This document shows, one piece after another, positions 5,568 to 41,922 of a stretch of 46,247 nucleotides of DNA. How positions within the stretch are numbered: position 1 is the first letter of the stretch; each line of letters starts with the position of its first letter. The notes under the pieces were generated by a model that saw only the letters and a program-made list of their open reading frames with translations, did not search any database and had not been told where the DNA came from. The position numbers and the translations under genes are program-made. The stretch lies in the NCBI RefSeq assembly GCF_001536285.1, contig NZ_FAOZ01000047.1, positions 1-46,247 of the forward strand. The letters run 5' to 3'. The DNA comes from Parafrankia irregularis (GTDB lineage Bacteria > Actinomycetota > Actinomycetes > Frankiales > Frankiaceae).

Positions 5568-5602
5568 ACACACCTCTTGCACTAATAGTGATCTAGGTGT
5601 GT
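5568..5602. repeat. 8-bp inverted repeat flanking CACTAATAGTG
   Basis: ACACACCT at 5568-5575 pairs with AGGTGTGT at 5595-5602, and the space between holds the odd palindrome CACTAATAGTG (5580-5590). The right arm includes the only AGG-like ribosome-binding candidate for the relaxase. Protein binding or RNA folding here could control relaxase translation or nicking. Confidence 0.5.
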
Positions 5603-5614
5603 AGTTATCCCGTG

Positions 5615-10053: not shown

Positions 10054-10568
10054 TACACCTCGGTAGCTATGGTCGTGGCCGCCTGCAGGTCAACAAACGC
10101 GGTGAAGTCACCCTCGCCATGGACCAGCGGGGAACCATGCTCCTTGTGCGCGTTTATCTGGCAGCGAGGAGAACGGCGGGCGAAGCGAGCTCGGGCGCGG
10201 GCGAGCCAGTCCAGCCAGCGGACCGGATCCTCCGAGCGGGCACCCGCATGGTAGGCACCTAGCCAGGCCAGCCACAAGCCCGTGAGTTCCTCGACGAGGT
10301 CGCCGTGCAGGTACCAACACGGCGGAATGTCGTCGATCCGGAAACGTTCGCACAACCAGCGCACCCACGCACCGAGCTCGTGCCAGGTCTCACGCAGCTC
10401 CTCGGCCTCGAGTTCCTCCCAGCAGAATGGCGGTCGGGCGTCCGCGGTGTCCTGCTCGGGTCGCTGGTCGCGCTGTTCGATGGCCAGTACCCGGTCAACG
10501 AGTTCGGAGACGACCCCGAGCAGCTCATCGAGCTCACCTCGTGCTGAGGGCGGCACGGGCCTGGTCAT
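10053..10568 (-). CDS. DUF4913-family protein
   Basis: A 171-residue protein with the DUF4913 pattern: a Trp-rich helical region WEELEAEELRETWHELGAWV, then CERFRIDDIPPCWYLHGDLVEELTGLWLAWLGAY (residues about 49-125), then a basic DWLARARARFARR stretch. DUF4913 proteins are small cytoplasmic proteins commonly found in actinobacterial conjugation or plasmid regions; their function is not known. It overlaps the coupling-protein gene by ATGA upstream and the next gene by TAATG downstream, so it is translated with the transfer machinery. An acidic N-terminal helix precedes the domain. Confidence 0.82.
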   Translation of the reverse strand: MTRPVPPSARGELDELLGVVSELVDRVLAIEQRDQRPEQDTADARPPFCWEELEAEELRETWHELGAWVRWLCERFRIDDIPPCWYLHGDLVEELTGLWLAWLGAYHAGARSEDPVRWLDWLARARARFARRSPRCQINAHKEHGSPLVHGEGDFTAFVDLQAATTIATEV

Positions 10569-12208
10569 GGCGCTGAGACTCCGTGGGGGTAGTAGGCATC
10601 GTGATCGGCACGCAGCCGCGCACCGTCTCGACGCCGGTCGACCTGCTGCAGACGGATCCAGGTCGGGGGCGCGGAACGAGGCAGCAGCAGGGCGTTGCCG
10701 AGAGGGGCGTTGCGGATCTCATCAGGTTCCAGCACCCGGCGACGACGAGGGCTGACGCTGATCTGATCCGGCCCCGCGGAGGCCCCACCGAGCAGGCCTC
10801 CGCGGGTATAGACCGAGGCGGTCGGTTCGTCGAACTCGCCGGCGGTCTTGGACAGGTCTTCCAGGTCGGCGACGTCGGACACACCAGGCAGGATCAGCTT
10901 GTAGGTGGCCGCATCCCACATCGCCTTCGCGGCGTGTTCGCCCCAGGCACGCCTCGCCTGGTTCAACGACTGCAGGACCGCCATGAGGAAGACTCCAGAG
11001 CCGCCGCCGTAGCTAAACAGGTCGGGCAACCGTGGCAGGGCGGCGATGTTCGAGGCCTCGTCGAGCATGAGACCCAGCGGCGGCGCGAGCCGCCCGCCCG
11101 GGGACGTCGCCGCCCGTTGCAGCCCGGCCTCGACAATCTCATCTACGAGCAACGCCGTCAGCGGTCCGATCGTCTGCTGTGAAGCGGGGGTGCCCTGGAT
11201 GTGGACCGTGCCGCCGGCGAGCAGGTCGACGATCTCGAAGCCGGTACCAGGCGGCGGGCAGGCAGCATCGAGGACGACCGGATCCCACAACGACGCGAGC
11301 GCGAGGCGGACCCCGAAGAAGATGTTGGCCTGCATCCGCGGGTCCTCGGTGGAGTAGCGGGCCAGAGACTCAGCCCAGGCCTGGGTGGCCAGGCCGGCAC
11401 GGCGGATGGCGGTGACAGGGGTGGGATCCGCCGGATCGGAGGACCATGCCAGAACGTCGCGCATGCTCGCCCCGGACAGCGCCGCCGCGTGTAGGTAAGC
11501 GGCGAGGACGATGGCGGAGACCTGCTGCCAGTCGGAGCCGTTCTCCGTGCCGGCGCCGATCTGGGCCGCGGAGGCGAGAACTTGACCCCGGCGCAGGGCG
11601 GTCGAGGGGTCGTCAGCCCCGCCGGTGGGGTCCCAGCGCAGCGGCTGACCGACCGGGGGCATAGGTTGCCAGGGATTCCACACCCAGACGGGGCCATGCT
11701 CACGTGCGCGGGCCGCGGCGGTCCACGCGGCCAGGTCCGGGCGGATGGACGTGGCCACGACCGGTCCGGGCCAGTCGACCACTGCACCGGCCAGCAGCCC
11801 GCGGGTCTTTCCGGAACGGGCGGGGCCGACGATGAGGCAGCCGTCCTCGACAGTTGCGTGGACGGCGCTGGCGCCGGCGAAACCTAGGCGGATCGCGGCA
11901 TCGATGGCCGTTGCGGCTTCCCCGAGATCAGGACGTAGGTGGGCGGCGCGTGCGGTGACCGCCCGGGCGGAGGCATCGCGGCGAACCCGAGCGGACCCGT
12001 CGCCCCGCAGGCGCCGCAGAGCAAGAACCGCCAAGGCGAACAGCCCGGTCGCGCCGAGTAGCAGAATCGCGAACAGCACATAGCCGCCCGGTCCGCCGAG
12101 CCTGGCGCAGACTCGCCAGAGGTAGTAGACAGCGCCGGCTCCGATGATGGACAGCGGCAACAGCAGCCCCTGCTTGGTCCCGCCGGGCGACGATCCGGGG
12201 CCCTGCAT
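10565..12208 (-). CDS. VirD4/TraG-type coupling protein
   Basis: A 547-residue inner-membrane ATPase that would bring the relaxase-DNA complex to the secretion channel. Two transmembrane segments come first (about 13-36 and 41-65), then a hexameric ATPase domain with Walker A VGPARSGKT (K134) and a Walker B with LMLDEASN, followed by SYGGGSGVFLMAVLQSLNQAR as in TraG/TraD proteins. The final 60 residues include a basic patch. The start at 12208 is chosen because it gives a TGATG junction with the preceding stop; a longer frame to 12334 would overlap that gene heavily. Confidence 0.9.
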   Translation of the reverse strand: MQGPGSSPGGTKQGLLLPLSIIGAGAVYYLWRVCARLGGPGGYVLFAILLLGATGLFALAVLALRRLRGDGSARVRRDASARAVTARAAHLRPDLGEAATAIDAAIRLGFAGASAVHATVEDGCLIVGPARSGKTRGLLAGAVVDWPGPVVATSIRPDLAAWTAAARAREHGPVWVWNPWQPMPPVGQPLRWDPTGGADDPSTALRRGQVLASAAQIGAGTENGSDWQQVSAIVLAAYLHAAALSGASMRDVLAWSSDPADPTPVTAIRRAGLATQAWAESLARYSTEDPRMQANIFFGVRLALASLWDPVVLDAACPPPGTGFEIVDLLAGGTVHIQGTPASQQTIGPLTALLVDEIVEAGLQRAATSPGGRLAPPLGLMLDEASNIAALPRLPDLFSYGGGSGVFLMAVLQSLNQARRAWGEHAAKAMWDAATYKLILPGVSDVADLEDLSKTAGEFDEPTASVYTRGGLLGGASAGPDQISVSPRRRRVLEPDEIRNAPLGNALLLPRSAPPTWIRLQQVDRRRDGARLRADHDAYYPHGVSAP

Positions 12209-13716
12209 CAGGCAGCCATGCGTTCGTCGGTGTGGTAGAGGCGGGCTTCGGTGTCGGTGAGGACGAGCTGCACCGGGTAGCCCCCCAGCCCCGCGATCTT
12301 CCACAATGCCCGCCCGCGGTCGCCGCCGCCCCACGAAGCGACGAGAAGCCGCTCGGCATCAGTGAGCCCAACCGTGTCGGCCAGATCGGCCAGCGGGCGG
12401 GTGTCCTGGGCGAGCAGGATCCGCACGTCGCAGGACGACACCAGCTCACGAGCGATCGCGACGGCTTCGGAGCCGGCAGCGCCGACCGCCTCGAAGTCGG
12501 CCAGACGGTGGGTGGCGAGCACCTGAATGGTGCCTTCGGCACGGCTCAGCCGCAGGTCAGAGTCGATCTTGCGGACGAAGTCGACGCCGGCCCGCAGTTG
12601 GCGCCACACCTCATCGCGGATCACCATGCGCAGCCGGCCGGGTTCATCGATCGCGGCCTGCCCCCAGCTCGACAAGCAGGTCAGCCCGACCACCACAGCG
12701 TCCTCACCCCGCTGGGAAAGGCGGGAGATGTCGACCGACTGCATGGGCCCATCGAAGTCCAGCTGCACGGTGGTCGGCGCGTCGAAGATCCCAGCGAGGT
12801 TCCGGACCATGCTGCCCAGCGCGTCAGTGACCCGGCGGAACAGGCTGACGAACTCGACCCGGGACGTGCAGCGGACCGCGGCGACCAGGCTGTCCGGGGC
12901 ATCGAGCAGCACCCGATGCACGTCGGGGATCGTCGGATCCGCCAGCGTCGTATAGGCCAGCTGCTCACCCGTAGTGATCCGCAACGCTTCGGCGAGAACC
13001 GTCTCATCCTCGGGGCCGACGGGAGTACGGGCACCGACCAGGGTCACCAACAACCGCAGCCGCCGTCGTCCGATCTCAGCGAGCCGCTCGGTCAGCAGGA
13101 TCGGATCGGCCGGCAGCCGGGCCCCCAGCGGTCCTGCGTCGAGAGGATTCAACCGGCCAGGCAACCCCGGGCCAAGCTCGCTCACAGTGCCACCGACCGC
13201 CTGAACCAGCGCACCGTACTCACCTTTGAGATCACCAAGGACCAGCGTGGATACCCCGAACTGGGACAGCCGCAATGCCAGGGCCTTCAGCGTCGCGGAC
13301 TTGCCGGCGCCGGGACTGCCGGAAACAAGCATGTTGGGGTTGCGGACCAGGCCACGGCGCAGCCATTCCACCGGATGGCACGCAAACGCAGCGCCAGTGA
13401 TCACGTCATAGCCGATGTAAGCGCCTACTGGGGGAACCCCGGCCCGTGTCAGAAGCGGATAGAGGCCCTGCACCGAAGCCGTGGACCCTCGCCACACCGC
13501 AGCCTGCGCGCTGTTCGCGGCGCGGCCACCGAAAGCACCGCGCCGTCCGCGGCGTGGAATCCACGTCCGCGGCGGGCCCACCTTCTCGGTCGGGCCGGAG
13601 GGTCGCGGTGCCGCTGGGCGGGTTGCGGGAAGCAGATCCCCCAGCGCCCAGGCCGGCAAGGAGGTCAGATCATCCCGGCTATGCCGGGGGTGTGACCGAG
13701 CTGCGTGTCGGCTCAT
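12208..13716 (-). CDS. VirB4-like secretion ATPase
   Basis: A 502-residue cytoplasmic ATPase of the VirB4/TraC/ConE type. Walker A is GSPGAGKS at about residues 133-140, a VLGDLKGEY segment follows, and RMVIRDEVWRQL supplies the Walker B acidic pair. The C-terminal part (IQVLATHRLADFEAV) fits a sensor region. It lacks the usual N-terminal VirB4 half; in actinobacterial systems that part is contributed by the SCO6880-type protein encoded just upstream (established arrangement, applied here). The first 90 residues are Pro/Arg-rich. The ATG at 13716 overlaps the preceding stop as ATGA; a longer frame to 13815 is unlikely. Confidence 0.9.
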   Translation of the reverse strand: MSRHAARSHPRHSRDDLTSLPAWALGDLLPATRPAAPRPSGPTEKVGPPRTWIPRRGRRGAFGGRAANSAQAAVWRGSTASVQGLYPLLTRAGVPPVGAYIGYDVITGAAFACHPVEWLRRGLVRNPNMLVSGSPGAGKSATLKALALRLSQFGVSTLVLGDLKGEYGALVQAVGGTVSELGPGLPGRLNPLDAGPLGARLPADPILLTERLAEIGRRRLRLLVTLVGARTPVGPEDETVLAEALRITTGEQLAYTTLADPTIPDVHRVLLDAPDSLVAAVRCTSRVEFVSLFRRVTDALGSMVRNLAGIFDAPTTVQLDFDGPMQSVDISRLSQRGEDAVVVGLTCLSSWGQAAIDEPGRLRMVIRDEVWRQLRAGVDFVRKIDSDLRLSRAEGTIQVLATHRLADFEAVGAAGSEAVAIARELVSSCDVRILLAQDTRPLADLADTVGLTDAERLLVASWGGGDRGRALWKIAGLGGYPVQLVLTDTEARLYHTDERMAA

Positions 13717-21524: not shown

Positions 21525-22490
21525 GTGACGACAGACCCGTGGACACGACCCGACGAGCCCAGGTTTCCTCACGAGAACCTGGAACACGTCATCGCCGTTG
21601 GGAACGGCAAGGGGGGCGTCGGGAAGACCACCCTGACCACCAACATCGCTGCCCTCGTCGCCGCAGGCGGCGCGAAGGTCCTCATCATCGACGTGAACGC
21701 CCAGGGCAACTGTGGCGAGGACCTCGGCTACACCGGACAGCCGGAGATCGACGACGACGGCAAGGGCCTCGTCGACGCCATCCGCTACGGCACCCCTCTC
21801 GTCCCGGTCCGTGCCGTGGGGGGGCGACCCGGGCTCGACGTGGTGCCCGGGGGAGCGGAGGTCCGTCAGCTTCCGACGTACATGTATGAGCGGTTCGCCG
21901 ACTCCGGGGAGTTCGCCACCCTCGCCTTGGCGCGCTCCCTGCTGCCGATCGCCAGCCAGTACGACTTGATCTTGATCGACTCCCCGCCGGAGAACCGTCC
22001 GCTACAGCAGCTCGTCCTCGGTGCCGCACACTGGTTGATCATCCCCATCAAGTCCGACGACTCGTCGCGCAAGGGCATGCAGCAGATCGCCTACGAGTTC
22101 GCGCGAATGCGTCGGGTCAACCCCAACCTCGAGCTTCTCGGCGTAGCCCTGTTCGCGGCCGGCACCAGTGCTCGCCGCATTCGGGAAGAGGTGCGTCGCG
22201 ACGTCGCCTCTGACTTGGGTGGGCGCGATCTCATGTTCGAAGCAGTCATCCGCCACGCCGAAGCCCCGGCCCGGGATGCCCGCCGCCGTGGACAGCCGTT
22301 CCACGAGCTGGAGGTTGCCGCAGCGAACGGACCGACGGGCCTCGACGTCTTGCGCGGCCTGGCGGATCGGTCACAGTTGATCGCTGGATCGTCCGGCGCA
22401 GTCGCCGCTGACCTGGCGACACTGACCCGCGAAGTCCTCACCCGGCGCGCAGCACTGCTCGAGGAGACGGAAAGCGTGGTCACGGCATGA
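21525..22490 (+). CDS. parA: ParA partition ATPase
   Basis: A 321-residue deviant-Walker ATPase for plasmid segregation. KGGVGKT is at 29-35 with both signature lysines, VLIIDVNAQGN is the A' region (the usual DxDPQ has become DVNAQ), and LILIDSPPENRPLQQ is Walker B. It should bind nucleoid DNA as an ATP dimer and be released by its centromere-bound partner. The GTG at 21525 is chosen because AGGTGGG lies just upstream; earlier TTG is unlikely. The N-terminal extension is too short for a repressor HTH, so repression would fall to the partner. The next gene overlaps by ATGA. Confidence 0.92.
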   Translation: MTTDPWTRPDEPRFPHENLEHVIAVGNGKGGVGKTTLTTNIAALVAAGGAKVLIIDVNAQGNCGEDLGYTGQPEIDDDGKGLVDAIRYGTPLVPVRAVGGRPGLDVVPGGAEVRQLPTYMYERFADSGEFATLALARSLLPIASQYDLILIDSPPENRPLQQLVLGAAHWLIIPIKSDDSSRKGMQQIAYEFARMRRVNPNLELLGVALFAAGTSARRIREEVRRDVASDLGGRDLMFEAVIRHAEAPARDARRRGQPFHELEVAAANGPTGLDVLRGLADRSQLIAGSSGAVAADLATLTREVLTRRAALLEETESVVTA

Positions 22491-26975: not shown

Positions 26976-28760
26976 ATGACTGAGACCGCTCCGGGTAACC
27001 GCCGGACGACCGCGCACGATCACGCGCAGCTCGCCGAGGCTCTCGGCTGGACCGTCATTCAGGTCGGGAAGGCAGTCGCGCTCGGTCTGCTGCCCCCGTA
27101 TGACCTGAAGTCGCCACGCTGGAGAGCCGCCACCGTGGACGCCTTGGTCGAGAGCCGGGATGCGCTGGCGAGCACGTTGGACGAGGAGGCACTGCTCACT
27201 GGGGACGAGCTGATCGCGCTGCTCCGGCTGGAGTACGCCGACTGGCGACGCGGCCGCGAGCATGCGGTGATCCCCGACCCCGACTGCGGCGAGTACTGGA
27301 GCAGGGCACTCGCCGACGACCTGGCCTCCCGCGGTGAATGGCTGCGCGAACAGATCCCCCCGCAGCCACTGGGAGCGCGACGATGCGCCGAGCTGCTGGC
27401 TGAACTCACCGGGCTGGAGGTGACCGACGACGACCTACGTCTGCTAATCGAGCAGGGGCAAGTCGCTGAGGTCGCCTTCTACAAGAAGTGGCCGCTCTAC
27501 GACACCGCCGCCGTCCGCCGGCTTGGGACCACCGCCGAAGGGATCGCCCTCGTCACGAGCACCGTCGCCGATCGGCAGGCATGGCTGGCTGGCTCGATGA
27601 CCAGTGAGGACACCGCCGCATGGCTGGGCTGCCACCCGCGGGATCTACCTCGCGTTGCGGCTGACCATGGCATCAGCCCGGGGCGATTCGGCCGGTGGGC
27701 CCGCATCGACATCGCGCGCCTCACCGACGACGAGGACGCCCTCGAGCAGGTTCGCCGCGGGCAGGTGCTCGGTCCCGAGCAGGCCGCACTGCACATGGAG
27801 ATCCGCCGCCGGGACTTCGACTATGTGGTCGCAGCCGGCTGGGTGGCACCGGTTCGACATGTCACCCGAGAGGTTGGAGTCCGCAAGACGGTCGATATCC
27901 CGCTGTACGCAATCGGTGGCCTAGAAGACGCCCTGCGCACTCAAGGGGTGGACTGGGAGGCCGTGCGTGCGGTGCGCGCCGGGGAGGCCTCACCGCTGAG
28001 GGAGTACACCCGGCTGCCCGCGGCCCGCGCCGACACCGTCCGAGCGTTCTGTGCCCAGCTCGCCGTGGCCTGGAGCGTCGAGGTGTGGCCCCACTTCGAC
28101 AACCCCACCGACAGGTGGGAGATCGACTGGGAGCAGCGTCACGATGGCCACCCCACCAGGGCCGAGGTCGTCGACGCGCTCGCCGCCCACCGCGGTGCTT
28201 CGAAACACGCCGAGCACATCGTCTTGTCGACAGCGGTTGGCGACGTCATCCGCCGCGCCCGCGCTGACCTGTCCCCCGGGGCCGCTGTCGTGATCGATAC
28301 CGAGACGACCGATCTCGACGGAATCGTCGTCGAGATCGCGGTTCTTGACGCAGCGACCGGAGCGGTCCTCGTGGACACTCTGGTCCATCCAGATGGCGTT
28401 CCGGTGGCAGCCGGCGCCCGCGCCGTCCACGGCATCACTGACGAAGCGCTGGCGGACGCGCCTCGGTGGGCTGACATCGCTGACGAGGTCCTCAGCACGC
28501 TCGCGGGCCGACGCATTCTCGCTTACAACGCTTCCTTCGACCGCGCACGGATCGCCGCGACCCACGCCCACGCTGGTCTCGACGCCGGTCGGCTGCCCTC
28601 GGCCGAGCAATGGGACTGCCTGATGGAAGCGCAGTCGACCTGGCTACGGATCGGCCGCTGGCTTCCCCTCGGCGCCAACCACCGCGCCCGCGGAGACGCC
28701 GCGGCCGCTCGCCGAATCCTGCAACAGCTCGCTGCTCCCCCCGACGCCTACCGGCCATAA
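26976..28760 (+). CDS. Fusion of HTH-like helical segments with a DEDDh 3'-5' exonuclease
   Basis: A 594-residue protein. The C-terminal domain (about 435-594) is a DnaQ-type exonuclease with VIDTETTDLDG (D441, E443), AYNASFDRARI (D522) and HRARGDAAAA (H569, D574), all five catalytic residues present. The N-terminal 430 residues contain several segments resembling DNA-binding helix-turn-helix units (LAEALGWTVIQVGKAVALGL near the start; TAAWLGCHPRDLPRVAADHG near 210; others near 145 and 265), each followed by a short strand, like a tandem array of MerR/excisionase-type headpieces. It probably trims DNA 3' ends during plasmid replication or transfer. The ATG at 26976 has GGGGGA 8 bases upstream. 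Confidence 0.82.
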   Translation: MTETAPGNRRTTAHDHAQLAEALGWTVIQVGKAVALGLLPPYDLKSPRWRAATVDALVESRDALASTLDEEALLTGDELIALLRLEYADWRRGREHAVIPDPDCGEYWSRALADDLASRGEWLREQIPPQPLGARRCAELLAELTGLEVTDDDLRLLIEQGQVAEVAFYKKWPLYDTAAVRRLGTTAEGIALVTSTVADRQAWLAGSMTSEDTAAWLGCHPRDLPRVAADHGISPGRFGRWARIDIARLTDDEDALEQVRRGQVLGPEQAALHMEIRRRDFDYVVAAGWVAPVRHVTREVGVRKTVDIPLYAIGGLEDALRTQGVDWEAVRAVRAGEASPLREYTRLPAARADTVRAFCAQLAVAWSVEVWPHFDNPTDRWEIDWEQRHDGHPTRAEVVDALAAHRGASKHAEHIVLSTAVGDVIRRARADLSPGAAVVIDTETTDLDGIVVEIAVLDAATGAVLVDTLVHPDGVPVAAGARAVHGITDEALADAPRWADIADEVLSTLAGRRILAYNASFDRARIAATHAHAGLDAGRLPSAEQWDCLMEAQSTWLRIGRWLPLGANHRARGDAAAARRILQQLAAPPDAYRP

Positions 28761-28764
28761 AATC

Positions 28765-28786
28765 GGATTTCTGTTTCCGGAAATCC
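28765..28786 (+). terminator. 7-bp hairpin followed by AGTTTTAGGG
   Basis: GGATTTC (28765-28771) pairs with GAAATCC (28780-28786), 4 bases after the stop codon and followed by a short T run. It fits a small terminator, or an operator of the next gene, whose promoter must be in the same 48 bases (TAGGGTATGGT resembles a -10). Confidence 0.5.
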
Positions 28787-28808
28787 AGTTTTAGGGTATG
28801 GTGATCGT

Positions 28809-30230
28809 GTGACCGAACTTCCTCTCACTGCTGCCGAGCCCGGTGACTCCTCCGCTCCTTCATCGCCCGAAGAAGCTGCTGTTCCGACGTTGCCTTGCCA
28901 GTGGTGCAACCGCGACGTGCCCCAGAGGCTGTCCGGCGCCGGTCGCAGACGCCGGTACTGCGATCCGGTCTCGACGGGTCGGACCTGCCAAGAGGAGGCA
29001 AAACGCGCTCGTGCCGCCCGCCGGGCCGGCGGCGGAATCGGCGCAGACGTCGTCGCGGCCGAGGAGATCGCCGAGAAGCTTCAGGTGTACGTCGATCGCA
29101 TCGCCGACGGGTTGGCCGCCGAACTCACCCCCACCGGCGTACAGACCGCGATATCCCGGGCCGAAGCTGCGGCGGCAGCCCGGGTAGCAGCCGCAGCGGC
29201 CGAGGTGGAGGAGGTGCGTCGCACCGCGGCTGAGCAGGTCGCGCAAGCGTTCGCCGACCGGGACCGCTCCGTGTCTGCCGCACACGCCGAGCGGGACACC
29301 GCCCTAGCTGACTCTCAAGCCGCACGGGCATCCGCCGAGGCGGCGGACCAGGCGGCCTCGGCCGCGCGGGCCGCGGCCGCCGACGCCGATCAGCGAGCCC
29401 AGACCGCAGAGACCGCTGCCTCCCGAGCGGAGGACAACGCCCAGACTGCTCAGGACGCGCGAGATGCTGCCCTCGCGGACGCCCGCAACGCCATGACTGC
29501 CCGCGACGCCGCGCTGGCCGAACGGGATCGCGCATTCGTGGAACGAGATGGTGCCCTCTCGGAAGCGTCGACAGCACAGACTCTCGCCGAACAGGCAGCA
29601 GAGGACCGGGCCACAGCGCGAGCTGAGGCAGCCCGGGCCGCGGCCGTCGCAGAGGCTGCCCAAGCGGCGCAGACTGCTGCCGAGGAACGGGCCTCGGCAG
29701 CGGAGAAGTCCTGGCGAGCCGAGACAGCAACCGCTGCCCGTGCCGTCGCCGAGCGCGACGCGGCCCGCACCCAAGCCAGCCAAGCGCAACAGCAGGCCGA
29801 AGCCGACCGGGCCCTCGCCGCGACAGCGATGGAACGTGCGGACACAGAAGTCGAGGCCCGCCGGCAGGCCGAGGACACCCTCCGCGGCCTACGTTCCGAG
29901 TTGACTGCCACTACCACTGACCGTGACCGGCTCACCGCCGACCTGGACCGTCTGCGCGCTCAAATCGACGATGAGCGAGCGGCAGCGACCACCCGCCTGG
30001 AAACAGCGCAGGAAGCCGCCACCCGTGCCACTGCGGCTGCCGAAAGCCATCAGGCCCAACAGATCGCCGCGCAGGCAGAACTCACGGAGCTCCGCAGGCA
30101 GCTTCAGGATGCGCGCGACCGGGCAGTCCGGGCGGAGACCGAACGGGACGCGGCCCGCGCGCAGACCGAACAGGCAACCGCCAGTCGACGTACACCTAAG
30201 AAGACCCCCCAGCCACCAGCCGACAGCTGA
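28809..30230 (+). CDS. Zinc-finger plus long coiled-coil protein (KfrA-like)
   Basis: A 473-residue protein. Residues about 30-62 carry a four-cysteine finger, CQWCNRDVP then RRRYC and GRTCQEE, a type frequent at the start of actinobacterial plasmid proteins. From about 95 to 455 there is an almost unbroken coiled coil of Ala, Glu, Arg, Gln and Asp with heptad periodicity. KfrA-type plasmid proteins share the small DNA-binding head and long alpha-helical tail and help nucleoid or plasmid organisation; this is an analogy, since the head here is a Cys finger. The GTG start follows AGGG at long spacing. It lies 48 bases after the exonuclease gene. Confidence 0.78.
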   Translation: MTELPLTAAEPGDSSAPSSPEEAAVPTLPCQWCNRDVPQRLSGAGRRRRYCDPVSTGRTCQEEAKRARAARRAGGGIGADVVAAEEIAEKLQVYVDRIADGLAAELTPTGVQTAISRAEAAAAARVAAAAAEVEEVRRTAAEQVAQAFADRDRSVSAAHAERDTALADSQAARASAEAADQAASAARAAAADADQRAQTAETAASRAEDNAQTAQDARDAALADARNAMTARDAALAERDRAFVERDGALSEASTAQTLAEQAAEDRATARAEAARAAAVAEAAQAAQTAAEERASAAEKSWRAETATAARAVAERDAARTQASQAQQQAEADRALAATAMERADTEVEARRQAEDTLRGLRSELTATTTDRDRLTADLDRLRAQIDDERAAATTRLETAQEAATRATAAAESHQAQQIAAQAELTELRRQLQDARDRAVRAETERDAARAQTEQATASRRTPKKTPQPPADS

Positions 30231-33602: not shown

Positions 33603-33815
33603 CTACACTTCTCTAGGGAGATCGAACTCGCCATCGACGGCGCCGCGCAGGAACGCGTCCCATCCCTGGGAGGTGAACGTGAGGATCGGCCCGGAAGGAT
33701 CTTTCGAGTCACGAACCGAGACCGTCACGCCGAGGCGGACCTCGACGCAGTTGCCTCCGGAGGAGTTCGAGTGGCTGCTCTTGATCCAGACTGGCCCTGG
33801 TTCAGCCGAGGTCAT
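33603..33815 (-). CDS. DUF397 protein paired with the XRE regulator
   Basis: A 70-residue DUF397 protein: VWIKSSHSNSSGGNCVEVRL, VSVRDSKDPSGPILTF and GWDAFLRGAVDGEFDLP. It overlaps the end of the XRE/DUF5753 gene by 14 bases, so the two are made together and are expected to interact, as in known DUF397/XRE pairs of streptomycetes. It is clearly related to the DUF397 copy at 33253-33471, suggesting a local duplication of the pair. The ATG at 33815 lies inside the XRE gene. Confidence 0.88.
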   Translation of the reverse strand: MTSAEPGPVWIKSSHSNSSGGNCVEVRLGVTVSVRDSKDPSGPILTFTSQGWDAFLRGAVDGEFDLPREV

Positions 33816-34677
33816 CAGCTACCTTCCTGATCATTTCGAGGGACTGCTGCGGTCGTAGGGCAATGGCTCGGATGAGGTCCATGCGGGCGACATATCGGCG
33901 GACGTCTGCGGGTCGTTCGACGTAGATCGCGCTGTCGAGTGCCTCGATGTACACCACGTCTTCGTCGCCGGCACCGGCGTCGAACCGCAGGATCGTGAAT
34001 CCGGTTCCCAGCGCCGGGTGCGCGCCGGCGTCGAACGGCAGGACCTGCAGGGTGAGGGCCGGCAGCTGGGCCTGATCGGCGAGGTGCAGGAGCTGCGCGC
34101 GCAGCACATCGGTGCCGCCGATGGGCCGACGGAGCACGGCTTCGTCGAGGACGGCCCACACGTTGGGGGGCGTGTCCCGGGTGAGTAGCCGCTGTCGCTG
34201 CGTGCGCAGCTGCACCTGGCGGGCGACGTCGCTCTCCGAACGCCGGGGAATCCCTGCGGCGAGGACCGCCGCGGCGTAGCCCGGGGTCTGTAGCAGGCCG
34301 GGGACGAGCTGGGTCTCGTAGGCGCTGATGGCACTGGCCTCGGTCTCCAGACCGATGTATCCACCGAACCAGTCGGGGAGGAGATCTCCCCAGGACTGCC
34401 ACCAGCCGCGTTCGTTGGACTGCCGCGCCAGGGCGGTGAGCGCGGTGACCGTGCCCGGGTCGGTGACCTGGTAGAGCTCGAGCAGGTCGGTGACGTCCCG
34501 GGGCGTGGTGGGGCTACGCCCCAACTCGATCCGGGAGATCTTCGATGGGGAGCACCCAAGGCGGGTGCGTGCCTCATCGGGAGTGATGCCCGCGGCCTCT
34601 CGGAGCCGGCGTAGCTCGGCGCCGAGTCGGCGCCGGCGCACGGTGGGGCTGGCGTCCTCTGACTGTGTCCGATCCAC
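33802..34677 (-). CDS. XRE-family regulator with DUF5753 domain
   Basis: A 291-residue DNA-binding protein. The N-terminal XRE helix-turn-helix is LGAELRRLREAAGITPDEARTRLGCSPSKISRIELGR (about 18-54). The DUF5753 (Scr1/WhiJ-type) domain from about 95 has GGYIGLETEASAISAYETQLVPGLLQTPGYA, WAVLDEAVLRRPIGG and LTLQVLPFDAGAHPALG. Proteins of this family work with a DUF397 partner, here encoded in overlap downstream, to repress target promoters. It diverges from a whiB-type gene; the shared 200-base region with a GAAGATCTTC palindrome near 34772 is a likely operator. No ligand is known. Confidence 0.92.
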   Translation of the reverse strand: MDRTQSEDASPTVRRRRLGAELRRLREAAGITPDEARTRLGCSPSKISRIELGRSPTTPRDVTDLLELYQVTDPGTVTALTALARQSNERGWWQSWGDLLPDWFGGYIGLETEASAISAYETQLVPGLLQTPGYAAAVLAAGIPRRSESDVARQVQLRTQRQRLLTRDTPPNVWAVLDEAVLRRPIGGTDVLRAQLLHLADQAQLPALTLQVLPFDAGAHPALGTGFTILRFDAGAGDEDVVYIEALDSAIYVERPADVRRYVARMDLIRAIALRPQQSLEMIRKVADDLG

Positions 34678-36674: not shown

Positions 36675-37106
36675 TCACGAAGACCTGGGGGGAGCGCAAC
36701 TCCCTCGCTTCTCGGGTGGCGCCGTGGCCCTGGGGGCCGCCGTTACTGCTGGAGCTGCCGTGGAGCGCCGGCCCGAGGGAGGGGTCGGGTGGTCGATGGG
36801 GACCACGGTGTAGCCGGACAATTGCAGAGAGCGTGCGTGTCGGTCGGCCTCCTGCTGGCACCCGAACTCGGCGATGATCTGCGTGGGCCGGTCGGCCGAG
36901 TCCAGTGCGACGACCGCCCAGTCGCTCTCGCCGGTCCACTCTGTGGGCAGCACCCTGGCGTCGATTCCGGGTTGGGTGCGCGCCCATTCGTCGGCGAGCT
37001 GGGGGGCCGCGAAGCCGACGACCGCACGGACCGCACGGTCACGGCTGTCAAGTGTCACGACTCCCCACCCCGCCATGGTGGTGAGGCCGGAGGTGGAGGT
37101 GCTCAT
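36675..37106 (-). CDS. Small protein made of two tandem repeats
   Basis: A 143-residue protein with an internal duplication: GWGVVTLDSRDRAVRAVVGFAAPQLADEW then DWAVVALDSADRPTQIIAEFGCQQEADRH, each about 45 residues, ending in ARVLP or TVVPID. The repeat looks like a small alpha/beta unit with a conserved W-(G/A)-V-V-x-L-D-S. The tail is Pro/Ala-rich. AGGAAGG precedes the ATG at 37106, which is why the longer frame to 37409 is rejected. No family is recognised. It lies 41 bases after the PCMT-type methyltransferase gene and is probably cotranscribed. Confidence 0.65.
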   Translation of the reverse strand: MSTSTSGLTTMAGWGVVTLDSRDRAVRAVVGFAAPQLADEWARTQPGIDARVLPTEWTGESDWAVVALDSADRPTQIIAEFGCQQEADRHARSLQLSGYTVVPIDHPTPPSGRRSTAAPAVTAAPRATAPPEKRGSCAPPRSS

Positions 37107-37147
37107 GCCGCGCCTTCCTGGTTGTCGGCATCGAGGGGGACGGGGGA

Positions 37148-38311
37148 TCAATCCCAGGCGATCATGAACTGGTTGTACGGTGCGGTGATCTGCCGTCCCG
37201 GCAGCGGACTGCCGCAGGCGGTGGAGGGCGGGTAGACCCTGATCGTCGGGTCGGGGCCCTCGCGGCGGTGCGCGTCCCACATCTGGATGTCGTAGCCGAG
37301 CAGGTCCGCGACCTCGTGTCGATCCGGGCCGTAGGCGGCAACCCGGACCTCTACGGCGCTGTCTTCGATGGGCTCGATGTCGAGGAAGGCGAGGGTGCCG
37401 CGCTTCCACACCGCTGACACGCCGTCAGGGCAGGGCCGGGTCATCGGAGTCTGCTGGTCGCTGACCGGCTCGACGTACAACCGGCCATAGAGTGGCCGGA
37501 CGACGGCCAGCGTCAGATCCAGATGGGGGAGCAAGCTGGCGGGCAGTGTCACACCGGTGCGTACCAGGTGTCGCTGCCCGATGATGGCGTCCCGCAGCGC
37601 GCCGGCGTCTACGTCCTGGCCCGCGGCGTCCAGCCGCACCCCGGCGGACAGAAACGTCGCAGTGCGCCGAGGGCTCTGAGACCGTCCAGGGAACGGACGT
37701 ATCGAGTCCGAGACGAGCAGACCGCCGTCGCGCACGAAGGCCACCGCCCTGTCCAAGCCACGCAGCCGCAGAGGGAGGACGAGTCGTCCTCCCTCTGCGA
37801 CTTCGCTAACCAGCTCCGGGTGGATGTCCGTCGGAGCGTGGAGAAGCACTCGGTCGTAGGGCATGCGTAGCCGCCCCGCGATGTCCCCACCTACCAGCTC
37901 GACGTTGAGGAAGCGGGGATCGTTGAGTCCTGCGGCATTCCTGCTGATTTTCAGGGCGTCGACATCTGTCGTCACGACCTTGCCGGTCCTACCGGCCAGC
38001 ACGGACAGCAACGCCGTGCTGTATCCGTCAGGAGAGCCGATCTCCAGAACGCGGGAACCGGGCTCGACCGCGAGCTGGTCGAGCATCACCGCGACCGCGG
38101 CTGGTACGGATGCCCACCGCCCGACGCCGTAGCCGCCGAAGGCGCCGTCGCCATACACCTCCTCGAAGGCGACGCCGGACACGAACCGCTCGCGCGGAAC
38201 CGCGCGCATCGCCGCCTCGACCGTCGTGGACACCGCCGCAACAGCGAGAACGCGGTCGACCATCACCGCGCGCAGTGCTGCAGCCGAGACGACCGACCCG
38301 TTGGAGGTCAT
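37148..38311 (-). CDS. PCMT-family SAM-dependent O-methyltransferase with C-terminal extension
   Basis: A 387-residue enzyme of the protein-L-isoaspartate methyltransferase family. The family landmarks are AMRAVPRERFV (about 34-44) and the SAM-binding motif VLEIGSPDGYSTALLSVL (about 88-105), followed by TTDVDAL. The C-terminal 180 residues are an extension absent from housekeeping PCMT but present in versions tied to peptide natural-product clusters (FxLD and ATP-grasp types). No precursor peptide or ATP-grasp gene is visible here, so substrate and pathway are open. It overlaps the upstream DUF397 gene by ATGA. Confidence 0.85.
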   Translation of the reverse strand: MTSNGSVVSAAALRAVMVDRVLAVAAVSTTVEAAMRAVPRERFVSGVAFEEVYGDGAFGGYGVGRWASVPAAVAVMLDQLAVEPGSRVLEIGSPDGYSTALLSVLAGRTGKVVTTDVDALKISRNAAGLNDPRFLNVELVGGDIAGRLRMPYDRVLLHAPTDIHPELVSEVAEGGRLVLPLRLRGLDRAVAFVRDGGLLVSDSIRPFPGRSQSPRRTATFLSAGVRLDAAGQDVDAGALRDAIIGQRHLVRTGVTLPASLLPHLDLTLAVVRPLYGRLYVEPVSDQQTPMTRPCPDGVSAVWKRGTLAFLDIEPIEDSAVEVRVAAYGPDRHEVADLLGYDIQMWDAHRREGPDPTIRVYPPSTACGSPLPGRQITAPYNQFMIAWD

Positions 38312-38538
38312 GACGCCGAGGGGAGCATGTCGTCGTACTCCCCGCGCTTCGCCGCGCTCACGAAGTCGCTGAATGCACCAGGTGAGTTCCGTACCGCCTG
38401 GCCCAGACTCGACCGGATCAGAACGCGGGGCCCATCAAGGGCGACCTCGATGATGTCGGGCACTGCGGGGTTGACCTGGGACGGTCGTCGCCATTCCAGC
38501 GCGGGAAGGACGGGCGCGGCGGTGGGGGGTAGGGACAC
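38308..38538 (-). CDS. DUF397-like protein coupled to the methyltransferase
   Basis: A 76-residue protein resembling DUF397: EWRRPSQVNPAVPDIIEVAL, PRVLIRSSLGQAV and AFSDFVSAAKRGEYDDML. The usual SSxS and VRDS motifs are weakened, so it is a divergent member. The GTG start follows GAAGGA. Its stop overlaps the methyltransferase start (ATGA), an uncommon partner for DUF397, which normally sits beside an XRE regulator. It could bind or direct the methyltransferase (inference). Confidence 0.72.
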   Translation of the reverse strand: MSLPPTAAPVLPALEWRRPSQVNPAVPDIIEVALDGPRVLIRSSLGQAVRNSPGAFSDFVSAAKRGEYDDMLPSAS

Positions 38539-38631
38539 GGTTTCCTTCGCAGGTTGTGGATGGAACCGCCGAACCCGAGCCGTTCTTTGACGGCGCGGGC
38601 CCGGCGGGCTCGTGGGAAGGTTCTGTCGTAA

Positions 38632-39513
38632 CTACGGAGAAAGCACCCGGCGTACGGCGGTCAAGTGCATCACCCGCTCGGTGATGCGCACACCGCTCTG
38701 TTCCGCGCCGAGGAACAGCGCATGCTCGTATCTGCTGATCAGACTTTGATCTCTGATCACTTTTCTCATCATCGCCTCTGTGGACAGGCCACCAGGCGTG
38801 ACCGGTCTCAGTAAGTAGGCCTTTACGGAATCGGCGTCTCTGAGATCCGTTGTCACCGAGTCGAATCGGGGAAGACCCGCATCCAGGCCTACGAGCTGAC
38901 CGGAGAGAACGATCCCGCGTTCGCTGAAGAGGTGCGCAGCGCGCAGCGCGGGGATCGAGTTCGCGACAGCAGCGTGGACGAAGTGAACCTCGGAACGGCT
39001 GATGCCCTGCCAGCCAATGTCCATATGTCGTTCCGCGTGGAGCGGCTCGCAGATGGAAAGGCGCCCGCCCACCTGGAGGACCCGCGCGGCCTCGGTCATG
39101 AGGCCACGCAACGGCGACCAGTATGCGAACACCCCACTGCCTACAACCACCTGCGCCGACGCAGAGGGAATGTCCAAGATGGACGGATCCGTACCGATCC
39201 ATCGGGCCGTACCTCCGTCAGGTATCGGCCGCGCCTGCCGGATCGGGGGCACCACCGGCGTGACCGTCGACACGCTGCCGGACGAGCCGACCCGACGTAG
39301 CGCCTCAAGCGTGAGCAGCGCGGTCTCGTCGCCGAGATTGACGACATGGTCACCGGGCCTGATACCGGCGTCGTCGAGAATCCGGGCGCATTCAACCTGC
39401 GCGCGCCTCTGATCTACCGGTGACGTTCCGGCGGCCCAACCGGGCGCGGGTCGCGACTCCACCGCTTCAGACCTGAGCATCGCGGCCCGCCACATGAGAT
39501 TGTCCGAGTCCAT
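38632..39513 (-). CDS. Divergent class I SAM methyltransferase-like protein
   Basis: A protein of about 293 residues with a Rossmann methyltransferase plan: GDHVVNLGDETALLTLEAL at motif I, where the usual D/E-x-G-x-G-x-G has become LGDETA, then IRQARPIPDGGTARWIGTD, and VVVGSGVFAYWSPLRGLMTEAARVLQVGGRLSICEPL, the motif IV-VI region typical of UbiE/SAM methyltransferases. The C-terminal part contains VRITERVMHL. Loss of two motif I glycines may impair SAM binding. ATG 39513 is chosen; a longer frame to 39585 starts in Arg/Ser-rich sequence. It shares the control region with the plus-strand TPR regulator. Confidence 0.72.
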   Translation of the reverse strand: MDSDNLMWRAAMLRSEAVESRPAPGWAAGTSPVDQRRAQVECARILDDAGIRPGDHVVNLGDETALLTLEALRRVGSSGSVSTVTPVVPPIRQARPIPDGGTARWIGTDPSILDIPSASAQVVVGSGVFAYWSPLRGLMTEAARVLQVGGRLSICEPLHAERHMDIGWQGISRSEVHFVHAAVANSIPALRAAHLFSERGIVLSGQLVGLDAGLPRFDSVTTDLRDADSVKAYLLRPVTPGGLSTEAMMRKVIRDQSLISRYEHALFLGAEQSGVRITERVMHLTAVRRVLSP

Positions 39514-39732
39514 CACTGCCAGCGGCGGACCACGGCGCGGTGAACTGCGCGTGCCCGTCGAGCATGCCCGCGATATGCGCGGCATGCGGACCCGCCTTTC
39601 TCGGGTCCGGCCGGTTGGCGGCGGCGTCGATGATCACATCTACTCCATGAATAGCGGAAAGATCCTTGGCGAATGTTTGGCGTCGCCGACGCCGGAATTT
39701 CCGGTTCCCTGGCAACCAGATTCCTGGGGCTG

Positions 39733-39780
39733 CGGGTGGGAAGGCGCTACTCGGCGGAGAGACAGCTTCCTTCCCACCCG
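39733..39780. repeat. 12-bp inverted repeat built on GGGTGGGAAGG
   Basis: Arms 39733-39744 and 39769-39780 are exact reverse complements, 24 bases apart, each carrying the 9-mer GGGTGGGAA. The wide spacing suggests two bound protein units rather than a terminator hairpin. Confidence 0.55.
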
Positions 39781-40005
39781 GCCATCCCGTCCCGTTCACC
39801 ACCGGACCGCAGCAGGGCGGCAACCGCCGGTCGCGGTGGGGCGGGTGGCCCCAGCGGGAACCTCCAGCGAGCCGGACCCGGCCGGCGCATCTGTGGGGCA
39901 CGCGCGCTCCTCTGCAGGTCCGGGCGGGTGGCCAGTGGTGTCCCGCTGTGCACGACTCATGACACAGGGCGTGACGTGACTGTGGAAGGGTGGGAACTTC
40001 CTTTT

Positions 40006-40034
40006 CGTGGGTGGGAAATTTTTTCCCACCCACG
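40006..40034. repeat. 13-bp inverted repeat built on GGGTGGGAA, near the regulator start
   Basis: Arms 40006-40018 and 40022-40034 are exact reverse complements with a 3-nt T centre, 26 bases upstream of the GTG at 40061. It overlaps where the promoter or leader of the regulator gene should be, so occupation would be expected to autoregulate it. Confidence 0.6.
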
Positions 40035-40060
40035 GCGCGCCGAGGACGAGAGGGAGACTG

Positions 40061-41380
40061 GTGGACGCTGACGGGGTCGAAGTGCTGAAGGAGGCCCTGG
40101 CCACACGCTTCATCGAGCTTCAGGAGGCACACGGCCTGTCGGGCATCCAGCTGGAGCTCCGCACCATGCACGACAAGAACAACGTCTATGCCATCCGCAA
40201 CCGGGGGCGGTTGCCCACCCGCGAGGTTCTACAGTCCTACGACCGCGAGTTCGGGACTGGCACGGAGCTCACCGATCTTGGTGAACGGGTCCGCGCGGCG
40301 CAGAAGGCCCGAAGAGCCGCCAACGCGGCCAACGCGGCCAACGCGGCCATCTCCCGGACGCGGCCCGCACCGGTGGACGAGGAGGTGAGCGGAACGAACA
40401 GGAGGACGTTTTTCGAGTTCGGCGCGACGAGTGTCCTGGCAGTTGAGGCCTACCGGCGGCATGCGGGGAACAGCCTTGACCCGCTGACGCTCGAGGAGCT
40501 CGACGACGAGCTCGCCGACTACGCTGAGCGGTTCACCACGACCCCGCATGACCAGCTCGCGCCCGAGATCGCGAAGACCTGGCGACACGCCGAGACGCTC
40601 CTGGAAGCCGGCCCCCGACCACGAGCGCAGGCCCAGCTCACCAGAGTCGCCGCGTTCTCCGCCTACTACCTGGGCCGGCTAGCGTTCAACACCGGGAACC
40701 GCACCGCGTCACGAAGGTTCATCCACCTCGCGGCGGAGCACGCCCAAGAGATCGACGACCCGGTGCTCACCGGCTCGGTCTTCGAGATGCTCTCCACGCT
40801 CGCCTTCTACGGCCACCAGTACAAGAAGGCGGCGAACTTCGCCCGCCGCGGCTTCACGGCGTCCGGCGCGGACCCCTACGTCGCCGGACGTCTCGCCTCT
40901 TACGAGGTACGGGCCCACGTCGCGCTCGGTGACGAGTCTGCAGCGCGAGCCGCGCTCACGCTGATGACCAAGCACGTCAGCGTCAGCCCGCCAATCCCTG
41001 GAGCGTCCCCGTTCGGACCCACGCACGCAGACCAGACCACCGCACGGACACTCGCTCTCCTCGGAGATGGTCACGCGGCCGAGCCCCTGGCCCGCGCCTC
41101 TGTCGAGGCCTACGAACGGACGGGCGGCGGGTTCGAGGATCGGGGAAACGCTGCGCTCAACCTCTCCTGGGCGCTGCTGCTTCGGCCCCACCCCGAGCCC
41201 GAGGCCGCTGCCGTCCTCGCGCAGCAGGTCCTGAGCGCGGTCGACATGACCCCAACCTTCTCCGTCCTGAACAAGATCGTCGATGTCGACCGGCGCCTGG
41301 ACCGGTACGCGCAGCTGCCCGCCGTCCGCAGCCTCCGGGCGCAGCTCGCCGAACGTCCGCGGCCGGCGATCACACAGTGA
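40061..41380 (+). CDS. TPR-domain transcriptional regulator
   Basis: A 439-residue protein. The first 80 residues resemble a degenerate XRE-type DNA-binding region (ATRFIELQEAHGLSGIQLELRTMHDKN, then EVLQSYDREFGTGTEL). A low-complexity linker AANAANAANAA follows, encoded by three 9-base repeats, then a segment NRRTFFEFGATSVLAVEAYRRH that mimics a twin-arginine signal but is internal. From about 150 to the end it is helical with TPR character (GSVFEMLSTLAFYGHQYKKAANFARRGF). Such proteins are common one-component regulators in actinobacteria. AGGGAG precedes the GTG. It is coupled by GTGA overlap to a GNAT acetyltransferase. Confidence 0.8.
   Translation: MDADGVEVLKEALATRFIELQEAHGLSGIQLELRTMHDKNNVYAIRNRGRLPTREVLQSYDREFGTGTELTDLGERVRAAQKARRAANAANAANAAISRTRPAPVDEEVSGTNRRTFFEFGATSVLAVEAYRRHAGNSLDPLTLEELDDELADYAERFTTTPHDQLAPEIAKTWRHAETLLEAGPRPRAQAQLTRVAAFSAYYLGRLAFNTGNRTASRRFIHLAAEHAQEIDDPVLTGSVFEMLSTLAFYGHQYKKAANFARRGFTASGADPYVAGRLASYEVRAHVALGDESAARAALTLMTKHVSVSPPIPGASPFGPTHADQTTARTLALLGDGHAAEPLARASVEAYERTGGGFEDRGNAALNLSWALLLRPHPEPEAAAVLAQQVLSAVDMTPTFSVLNKIVDVDRRLDRYAQLPAVRSLRAQLAERPRPAITQ
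40321..40347 (+). repeat. Three 9-base tandem repeats inside the regulator linker
   Basis: CAACGCGGC is repeated three times without change and encodes the Ala-Ala-Asn linker of the TPR regulator. Slippage here would change linker length by three residues while keeping the frame. Confidence 0.6.
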
Positions 41381-41922
41381 CCACCCCGCAGATCCCGACG
41401 GTCGTCACCGATCGGCTCATCCTCCGCGGATGGCGCGACCAGGACATCGAACCGTACGCGGCGATGAACGCCGACCCAGAGACGATGCTCTACCTCGACG
41501 GCATCTGCGGACTCGATGACACGATCCGGCTGGTCCAACGCGCGCGGGCACTGTGGGCCCGCCGCGGTCATGGCATGTGGGCGGTCGAGGACCGGGCAAC
41601 AGGCGAGTTCCTCGGCAGAGCCGGAACCTTCTACGGCGAAGGTTGGCCTGGCGTCGAGGTCGCCGTCTCGCTGCGCCGGGACCGGTGGCGGCAAGGCCTC
41701 GGTACGGAGGCCATCACCGCGTCGCTCGACTTCGGATTCGACACCCTCGACGTCGACAGACTGATCACCGTCACCCATCCGCAGAACGCCGGGATGAACG
41801 CGATCGCCCGCAAGCTCGGGATGACCTTCCAGGAGGTCGCCGACGTAGGACCATGGCGCGCGAACAACGTCTACACGATCACTCGTGGCGAGTGGGCTGC
41901 CCGCCGCAGAGAGGCCGAGTAG
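41377..41922 (+). CDS. GNAT acetyltransferase (RimJ/RimL type)
   Basis: A 181-residue acetyl-CoA-dependent N-acetyltransferase. It begins TDRLILRGWRDQDIEPYAAMNADPETM, has GMWAVEDRATGEFLGRAG, the CoA-binding loop RRDRWRQGLGTEAI (motif A) and THPQNAGMNAIARKLGM, the usual RimJ/RimL order at normal length. It acetylates an amino group of a protein terminus or small molecule; the substrate is unknown. It overlaps the regulator stop by GTGA and is the middle of a three-gene unit. Confidence 0.92.
   Translation: MTTPQIPTVVTDRLILRGWRDQDIEPYAAMNADPETMLYLDGICGLDDTIRLVQRARALWARRGHGMWAVEDRATGEFLGRAGTFYGEGWPGVEVAVSLRRDRWRQGLGTEAITASLDFGFDTLDVDRLITVTHPQNAGMNAIARKLGMTFQEVADVGPWRANNVYTITRGEWAARRREAE

Follow-up and report, generated by a model that had tools for sequence, protein, structure and literature searches.

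The 46,247-nucleotide stretch of Parafrankia irregularis DNA that is analysed here (the window; contig C47 of the genome G000) carries five copies of the 9-mer GGGTGGGAA between two divergent gene groups, and the question that this locus raises is which protein reads these copies and what it would control by doing so. The original prediction described them as an operator array that joins a methyltransferase group to a TPR regulator. Our analysis points to a narrower answer: with a probability of roughly 0.8, the array at 39988-40031 is the operator of the HTH-TPR regulator that is encoded directly behind it (40061-41380), a regulator that putatively represses its own gene and whose HTH is exchanged together with the operator as a cassette. 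The elements that are needed for the argument are the following, in coordinates of the window:

39733-39744 / 39769-39780, no strand: second pair, an exact 12 bp inverted repeat that holds the copies 39734(+) and 39771(-), with 24 nt between the arms
39958-39966, plus strand: conserved block CATGACACA, ~104 bp before the start codon of the TPR gene
39988-39996, plus strand: candidate operator copy 1, GGGTGGGAA (count in the window, comparison of arrays)
40009-40017, plus strand: candidate operator copy 2, GGGTGGGAA, 21 bp after copy 1
40023-40031, minus strand: candidate operator copy 3, GGGTGGGAA, inverted, 14 bp after copy 2

An exact count agrees with the prediction that GGGTGGGAA occurs exactly five times in the window, at 39734(+), 39771(-), 39988(+), 40009(+) and 40023(-), a number found in none of 100 dinucleotide shuffles of the window (mean 0.28, maximum 3); it is also confirmed that four of the five copies lie inside exact inverted repeats of 12 and 13 bp, the longer of which (40006-40018 / 40022-40034) is formed by copies 2 and 3. 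The array, whose geometry the original prediction did not give, is composed of a direct repeat at 21 bp, followed by an inverted copy at 14 bp, and ends ~30 bp before the start of the regulator gene. Further upstream, the pattern of the CATGACACA block is found in 20 of 36 upstream regions of regulator homologs, compared with 26 of 2220 background tiles, and the block probably belongs to the core promoter from which the TPR gene is transcribed.

The expected rarity of the word, counted over the whole genome, has held for the array and not for the single word: in 9.54 Mb, GGGTGGGAA occurs 103 times and its reversed control 33 times, with ~58 copies expected by arithmetic from the shuffle rate of the window, so that lone copies are not special, and the plain count of the 9-mer has been rejected as a test of the operator. 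Copies less than 60 bp apart occur only on contigs C43, C47 and C48, as judged by eye among the 100 of the 103 sites that were listed.

The gene that follows the array, together with its partner, is laid out as follows:

40061-41380, plus strand: HTH-TPR regulator of the NsdA family (NF053720), 439 aa, GTG start (profile match, predicted structure)
40061-40360, plus strand: predicted five-helix HTH-like N-terminal domain (codons 1-100), co-inherited with the operator (prediction, tree)
40375-41900, plus strand: TPR and GNAT stretch, 83% identical to contig G018:C159, locus L103 (DNA comparison)
41377-41922, plus strand: GNAT acetyltransferase, overlapping the end of the TPR gene (profile search)

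The regulator matches the family of Streptomyces NsdA above the cut-off of NF053720 (119.8 bits vs 75; residues 25-427, profile positions 25-431 of 432), and all 27 aligned proteins, that of the window included, match the same profile at E up to 0.001. Its N-terminal helices are predicted at residues 4-24, 28-35, 39-46, 54-64 and 69-100, with helical repeats at 112-439, and the structure model that was built from the alignment of 27 (mean pLDDT 86) combines a HTH N-terminus with a TPR domain, i.e. both elements of the layout of the RRNPP regulators. HTH_31 is matched in 18 of the 27 proteins (E up to 1; best 1.9e-14), and a Pfam search gives no HTH match for the window protein itself. The pair of regulator and GNAT is kept in 10 of 11 loci compared, the exception being L110, where the gene is cut short; no GNAT has been found beside the homologs L055 (C43) or L127 (G018:C149).

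In order to judge whether the array belongs to this regulator, we have compared the upstream regions of its homologs, which 33 of the 35 Frankiaceae genomes contain. The comparison covers 36 loci, in which several start codons were assigned by rule or by hand; three partial matches (L192, L193 and L195) in a set of 34 loci had been left out beforehand; nine of these loci (the window, L101, L110, L162-L166 and L169) have the HTH type of the window and are referred to as group A. In gene orientation, a three-copy array lies ~30 bp before the start in all nine group-A loci, and likewise in L127, whose HTH is group-A-like by eye. Its geometry is constant and is shared by an array on contig C48: in a free search, the inverted step of 14 bp was the best in 11 of 11 arrays and the direct step of 21 bp in nine of 11, with L164 and L110 giving 30; the step of 21 bp was imposed in the main comparison of the 11 arrays. 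Scored against a consensus that, like group A itself, was defined from the window after inspection, the triple copy reaches at least 21 of 27 in 9/9 group-A loci (range 21 to 27) and in 0/27 of the other HTH-TPR loci, the highest of which is L186 with 19. Among 33 further loci, L127 scores 24, the next value among the best 12 of the 33 being 17.

Scans beyond the homologs agree with this distribution. When every position of 46 sequences was scored on both strands (1,313,244 positions, with some loci present twice and the array of the window reading 21 on the opposite strand as well), all sites at or above 21 were group-A operators, at -73/-74; of 7682 background tiles of 110 nt, which could split an array, none reached 21, two scored 20 and four scored at least 19. 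When a pattern for the array was run against 393 genomes of the class, among which 35 are Frankiaceae, it returned seven arrays in six genomes, with no match for the reversed control; all seven are within the Frankiaceae, and six of them lie, by their coordinates, 29-31 bp before a group-A gene. A looser scan of the 35 family genomes gave 13 matches, of which 10 precede genes of the HTH kind of the window, one is on contig C48 and two (G027, G032) look like chance, the reversed control giving one match (G009). The original prediction is thereby sustained on its regulator side: homologous genes that have this HTH type are preceded by the array and those with a different DNA-binding domain are not, as would be expected of an operator array of the TPR regulator.

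Tight palindrome patterns alone match in just 1/35 and 2/35 of the family genomes, because the relatives carry variant copies: in L127, each of the three copies has the variant GGGTGCGAA, and in L169, copies 2 and 3 have GGGTGGAAC. Such concerted variants would follow from the reading of all copies by a single protein. Before more distant members of the NsdA family in the same genome (8 of 30 matches, with rough starts), the inverted repeats are of at most 7 bp or there are none.

The seventh array of the strict scan has no such gene behind it. It lies on contig C48 (G000:C48:42438-42481; L031 5439-5482) and matches the array of the window at 86% over 49 bp; tblastn finds no HTH-TPR gene on this contig, and the four ORFs around the array have no Pfam match at E up to 0.1. 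The ends of C48 match the stretches 28757-28840 and 28891-29242 of the window, which neighbour each other; on this basis, C48 is possibly a circular plasmid of ~43.7 kb, and its array is possibly a target in trans.

The different histories of the two halves of the regulator gene bear on how operator and regulator are connected. In trees of 34 proteins (the partial proteins L110 and L190 were left out of the trees and of the partial Mantel tests), the group-A HTH domains (8 rows) form one clade with support 100/100, and the TPR parts of group A fall in four places, a single clade being rejected (AU p = 3e-32). The window and L103 (G018:C159) are sisters in the TPR tree (100/100), with 81% identity in the TPR part vs 24% in the HTH, and their grouping is rejected by the HTH data (p = 4.8e-5); at the DNA level, the two loci are alike only from +314 to +1839 (83%), through the GNAT gene, and their operators and HTH regions are not homologous, 432 bp of upstream sequence being available in L103. 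The converse mosaic is formed by L162 (P. colletiae) and L101, which are alike only from -214 to +359 (86%), i.e. over promoter, operator and HTH; in Frankia sp. CIT1, the HTH domains of L177 and L187 are 96% identical and their TPR parts 43%. From these boundaries, it is likely that operator and HTH move as a cassette of ~0.57 kb while the TPR part stays behind.

Across 561 pairs of related sequences, operator similarity tracks HTH identity when TPR identity is given (partial Mantel r 0.35, p 0.0005) and not TPR identity when HTH identity is given (r 0.03, p 0.27). Since the operator adjoins the HTH, this co-inheritance alone shows linkage or co-transfer rather than recognition; that the HTH recognises the array is suggested by the repetition of one word, by the fixed spacing and orientation of the copies and by the variants that change in concert.

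Homologs with other HTH types are preceded by other words, which by eye are of the GTTGCA, GTTACGG, GGAACA, GCGAGAG, GTCACG and TTCCCACCC kinds; each kind goes with its own recognition-helix region, and both direct and inverted orders occur. In an exact 7-mer test, 12 of 36 homolog upstreams gave p < 0.05, as did 24 of 168 control upstreams, which thus exceed 5% and which were taken from a home-made gene finder that listed too few genes in the window; mean coverage was 24.8 nt in the homolog upstreams and 13.2 nt in the controls. Within group A, the window, L101 and L169 alone pass, the copies of the other loci not being identical. L103, L175, L179 and L190 score zero in this test. The trend is thus present but not shared by all members, and the idea of a clear exact repeated word before every homolog has been rejected. 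One homolog of another HTH class shares the word of the window: L055 is preceded by the palindrome TTCCCACCCtGGGTGGGAA (G000:C43:27934-27952), which has 1 nt between its arms and is built on GGGTGGGAA. Judging from these two upstream regions, one and the same word may be read by two HTH classes in this genome.

The same observations bear on two other explanations of the array. The 13 bp inverted repeat could act as an RNA hairpin in the leader of the regulator mRNA, i.e. as a terminator, an attenuator or an occluder of the start site: when the leader (39975-40064) is folded, copies 2 and 3 pair to form the stem, at -35.8 kcal/mol (z -1.90 vs shuffles), and these copies are, by eye, mostly complementary throughout group A. 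The z-score is modest, however, with 7 of 200 shuffles folding equally well, and a hairpin leaves unexplained both copy 1, a direct copy 21 bp upstream, and the C43 palindrome with its single nucleotide between the arms; the different words of the other HTH classes, in direct as well as inverted order, also speak against it, and we regard this explanation as quite improbable. Equally small is the chance that a different regulator with a more global role reads the array, the HTH-TPR gene being a mere target. Such a regulator would fit the block near -104 that is common to homologs of different HTH types, the orphan array on C48 and the use of the GGGTGGGAA word before the different HTH of L055, but one would not predict that its sites go with the HTH type of a gene that it controls, and homologs with a different HTH lack the array even where their TPR and GNAT parts are similar; moreover, all but one of the seven arrays in the 393 genomes adjoin HTH-TPR genes of this kind.

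Recognition of the array by the regulator encoded next to it therefore remains the preferred reading, and the geometry suggests how it might operate. A dimer would probably bind the inverted copies 2 and 3 through the N-terminal HTH, and more of the protein could sit on copy 1, which lies two helical turns further upstream and faces the same side of the DNA. Protein bound in this way would lie over the stretch that separates promoter and ribosome-binding site, with repression of the regulator-GNAT operon as the result. The TPR superhelix may sense a ligand that changes binding and releases the operon. Promoter, operator and HTH (~0.57 kb) would be exchanged as a unit between TPR-GNAT modules in the Frankiaceae, a change of sensor leaving operator and reader matched.

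The sign of the proposed regulation could be the opposite one, with the array as an activator site from which the bound regulator turns on its operon or the divergent methyltransferase genes, given that copy 1 is close to the presumed promoter and that the possible methyltransferase starts follow the second pair at a distance of some 150-260 bp. Copies 2 and 3, on the other hand, are downstream of the presumed promoter and end ~30 bp before the start codon, and a site between promoter and start codon is a usual place for repression. Furthermore, NsdA of S. rimosus is described as a negative regulator in the abstract of PMC12243394; activation appears unlikely, and autorepression is retained as the favoured mode of action.

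On the other side of the array, the divergent region includes the following elements:

39905-39912, minus strand: ribosome-binding-like GAGGAGCG, divergent (also in L101, L102, L107 and L109 of 12 loci looked at)
38632-39513, minus strand: SAM methyltransferase-like protein (Methyltransf_11 just under the Pfam cut-off; start unsure: 39477, 39513 or 39585)
38308-38538, minus strand: DUF397-like protein, 76 aa (below the Pfam cut-off)
37148-38311, minus strand: PCMT methyltransferase (related to the FxLD-system family, under its cut-off)

The second pair of copies (39733-39780) may place this group under the control of the regulator, and it is here that the predicted link between the two gene groups is weaker than on the TPR side, as it depends on the copies at 39734 and 39771. 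A second cluster of the home word occurs in three loci (the window, L168 and L181) of the 28 among the 36 that are testable, i.e. in which an exact repeated 8-mer could be sought nearby, and in the window only among the six testable group-A loci. The block of three genes (methyltransferase, DUF397-like, PCMT) is also present on C43, with 73% identity over 2272 nt, and no such pair is found in the 700 nt upstream of the C43 block. From this distribution, the odds seem about even that the second pair is a local gain by which the methyltransferases would have been added to the regulon. The two blocks are located at 37217-39483 in the window and at G000:C43:32690-34951, each ~4 kb or less from a HTH-TPR gene with a GGGTGGGAA-type operator.

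The PCMT protein scores 221.7 bits with the FxLD-system methyltransferase profile TIGR04364, below its cut-off of 320. It also matches the defence model mads_2 (E 1.1e-9), an identity that we have rejected in favour of a shared methyltransferase fold; the regulator, the GNAT and the protein encoded at 38632 have no match among the defence-system models. Two further reading frames have been observed in this area. A small divergent gene (39796-39950, minus strand), which goes with the ribosome-binding-like GAGGAGCG and has a start of the type VxSxxxAPxGSAGR, is open beside L101, L102, L107 and L109; the copy in the window looks degraded. The ORF at 36675-37409 (minus strand) has no Pfam match and shares 54% identity across 193 aa with a frame in P. 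colletiae (L102), where the counterpart adjoins an FxLD-type methyltransferase; as listed, it overlaps the PCMT gene, so its start is probably further in.

Elsewhere in the window, three genes indicate the kind of element on which the regulator resides:

5597-9337: TrwC relaxase with helicase domain (domain search)
10565-12334: TraG/VirD4-type coupling protein (domain search)
21525-22490: ParA-like protein (read from the translation)

With these three genes, the window looks like, and on their predicted functions probably is, a conjugative element. This recalls the RRNPP regulators (Rap, NprR, PlcR and AimR), some of which control conjugation: the predicted HTH-TPR layout is the same, and the gene of the window is on an apparent conjugative element. 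The structure model aligns with Rap of Phi3T (8rtc_B: Z 20.6, rmsd 5.8, 287 residues), Rap (4gyo_B: Z 19.2, rmsd 7.9, 297 residues), AimR (5zw5_A: Z 18.4, rmsd 16.7, 327 residues, model residues 10-436), pLS20 Rap (6t46_G: Z 18.2, rmsd 6.7, 309 residues) and NprR (5dbk_A: Z 16.6, rmsd 8.8, 295 residues). Scores of this height are also reached by MalT (1hz4: Z 21.4, rmsd 4.6, 286 residues) and by many TPR proteins of eukaryotes, so that the fold alone does not identify an RRNPP protein, and the best RRNPP match of the regulator profile, PlcR, is weak (E 0.22) and confined to the HTH part. RRNPP systems also include a propeptide gene, whereas none has been identified in the window with the FxLD precursor profile: the three matches of this genome are all on contigs other than C47. 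In the family, the FxLD lanthipeptide precursor (TIGR04363) has 62 matches in 34 genomes, five of them below the cut-off, of which 15 lie within 10 kb of a listed regulator homolog (0.9 expected from gene density) and eight within 5 kb (0.5 expected), counted among at least 150 listed homologs with contig ends ignored.

Exchange of a regulator together with its sites has a precedent in lambdoid phages, whose immunity regions carry repressor and operators and are exchanged as a whole. Here too, the DNA-binding part and the operators are swapped as a matched block, but the break lies inside the regulator gene, the sensor half and the GNAT are left behind, and the carrier looks like a conjugative element instead of a phage. 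XRE-DUF5753 and DUF397 proteins form pairs in actinomycetes, and both kinds are present in the minus-strand neighbourhood, the XRE regulator with DUF5753 at 33802-34677; the array, however, precedes the HTH-TPR gene and not this pair. The NsdA protein of S. rimosus binds DNA according to ChIP-seq and EMSA (PMC12243394), and the term "motif" is absent from the main text of that report; in passages on NsdA, neither an operator sequence nor an exchange of operator and HTH nor a mobile element was found. A limited search of titles and abstract openings has found no operator-HTH cassette exchange within a TPR regulator gene. Regulators of the NsdA and HTH-TPR types are thus already known, and what would be new is the cassette break within a TPR regulator gene.

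For the NsdA-like regulators, which form a large family, the array provides a concrete candidate DNA target, and the natural domain swaps allow operators to be matched to the domains that read them. The proximity of FxLD precursors to these genes beyond expectation (15/62 vs ~0.9) offers a handle on the regulation of FxLD-type peptide clusters. The exchange of cassettes would be a simple route by which a bacterium changes the sensor of a regulator with the operator match kept. On a wider and rather doubtful view, the Frankiaceae may hold a pool in which cassettes (promoter, operator and HTH) and sensors (TPR and GNAT) are recombined, partly on conjugative elements and often by FxLD-type clusters, with some of the regulators sensing peptides made next door, as an actinobacterial counterpart of RRNPP; if this were true, each swap would rewire a signal to a private operator in one step.
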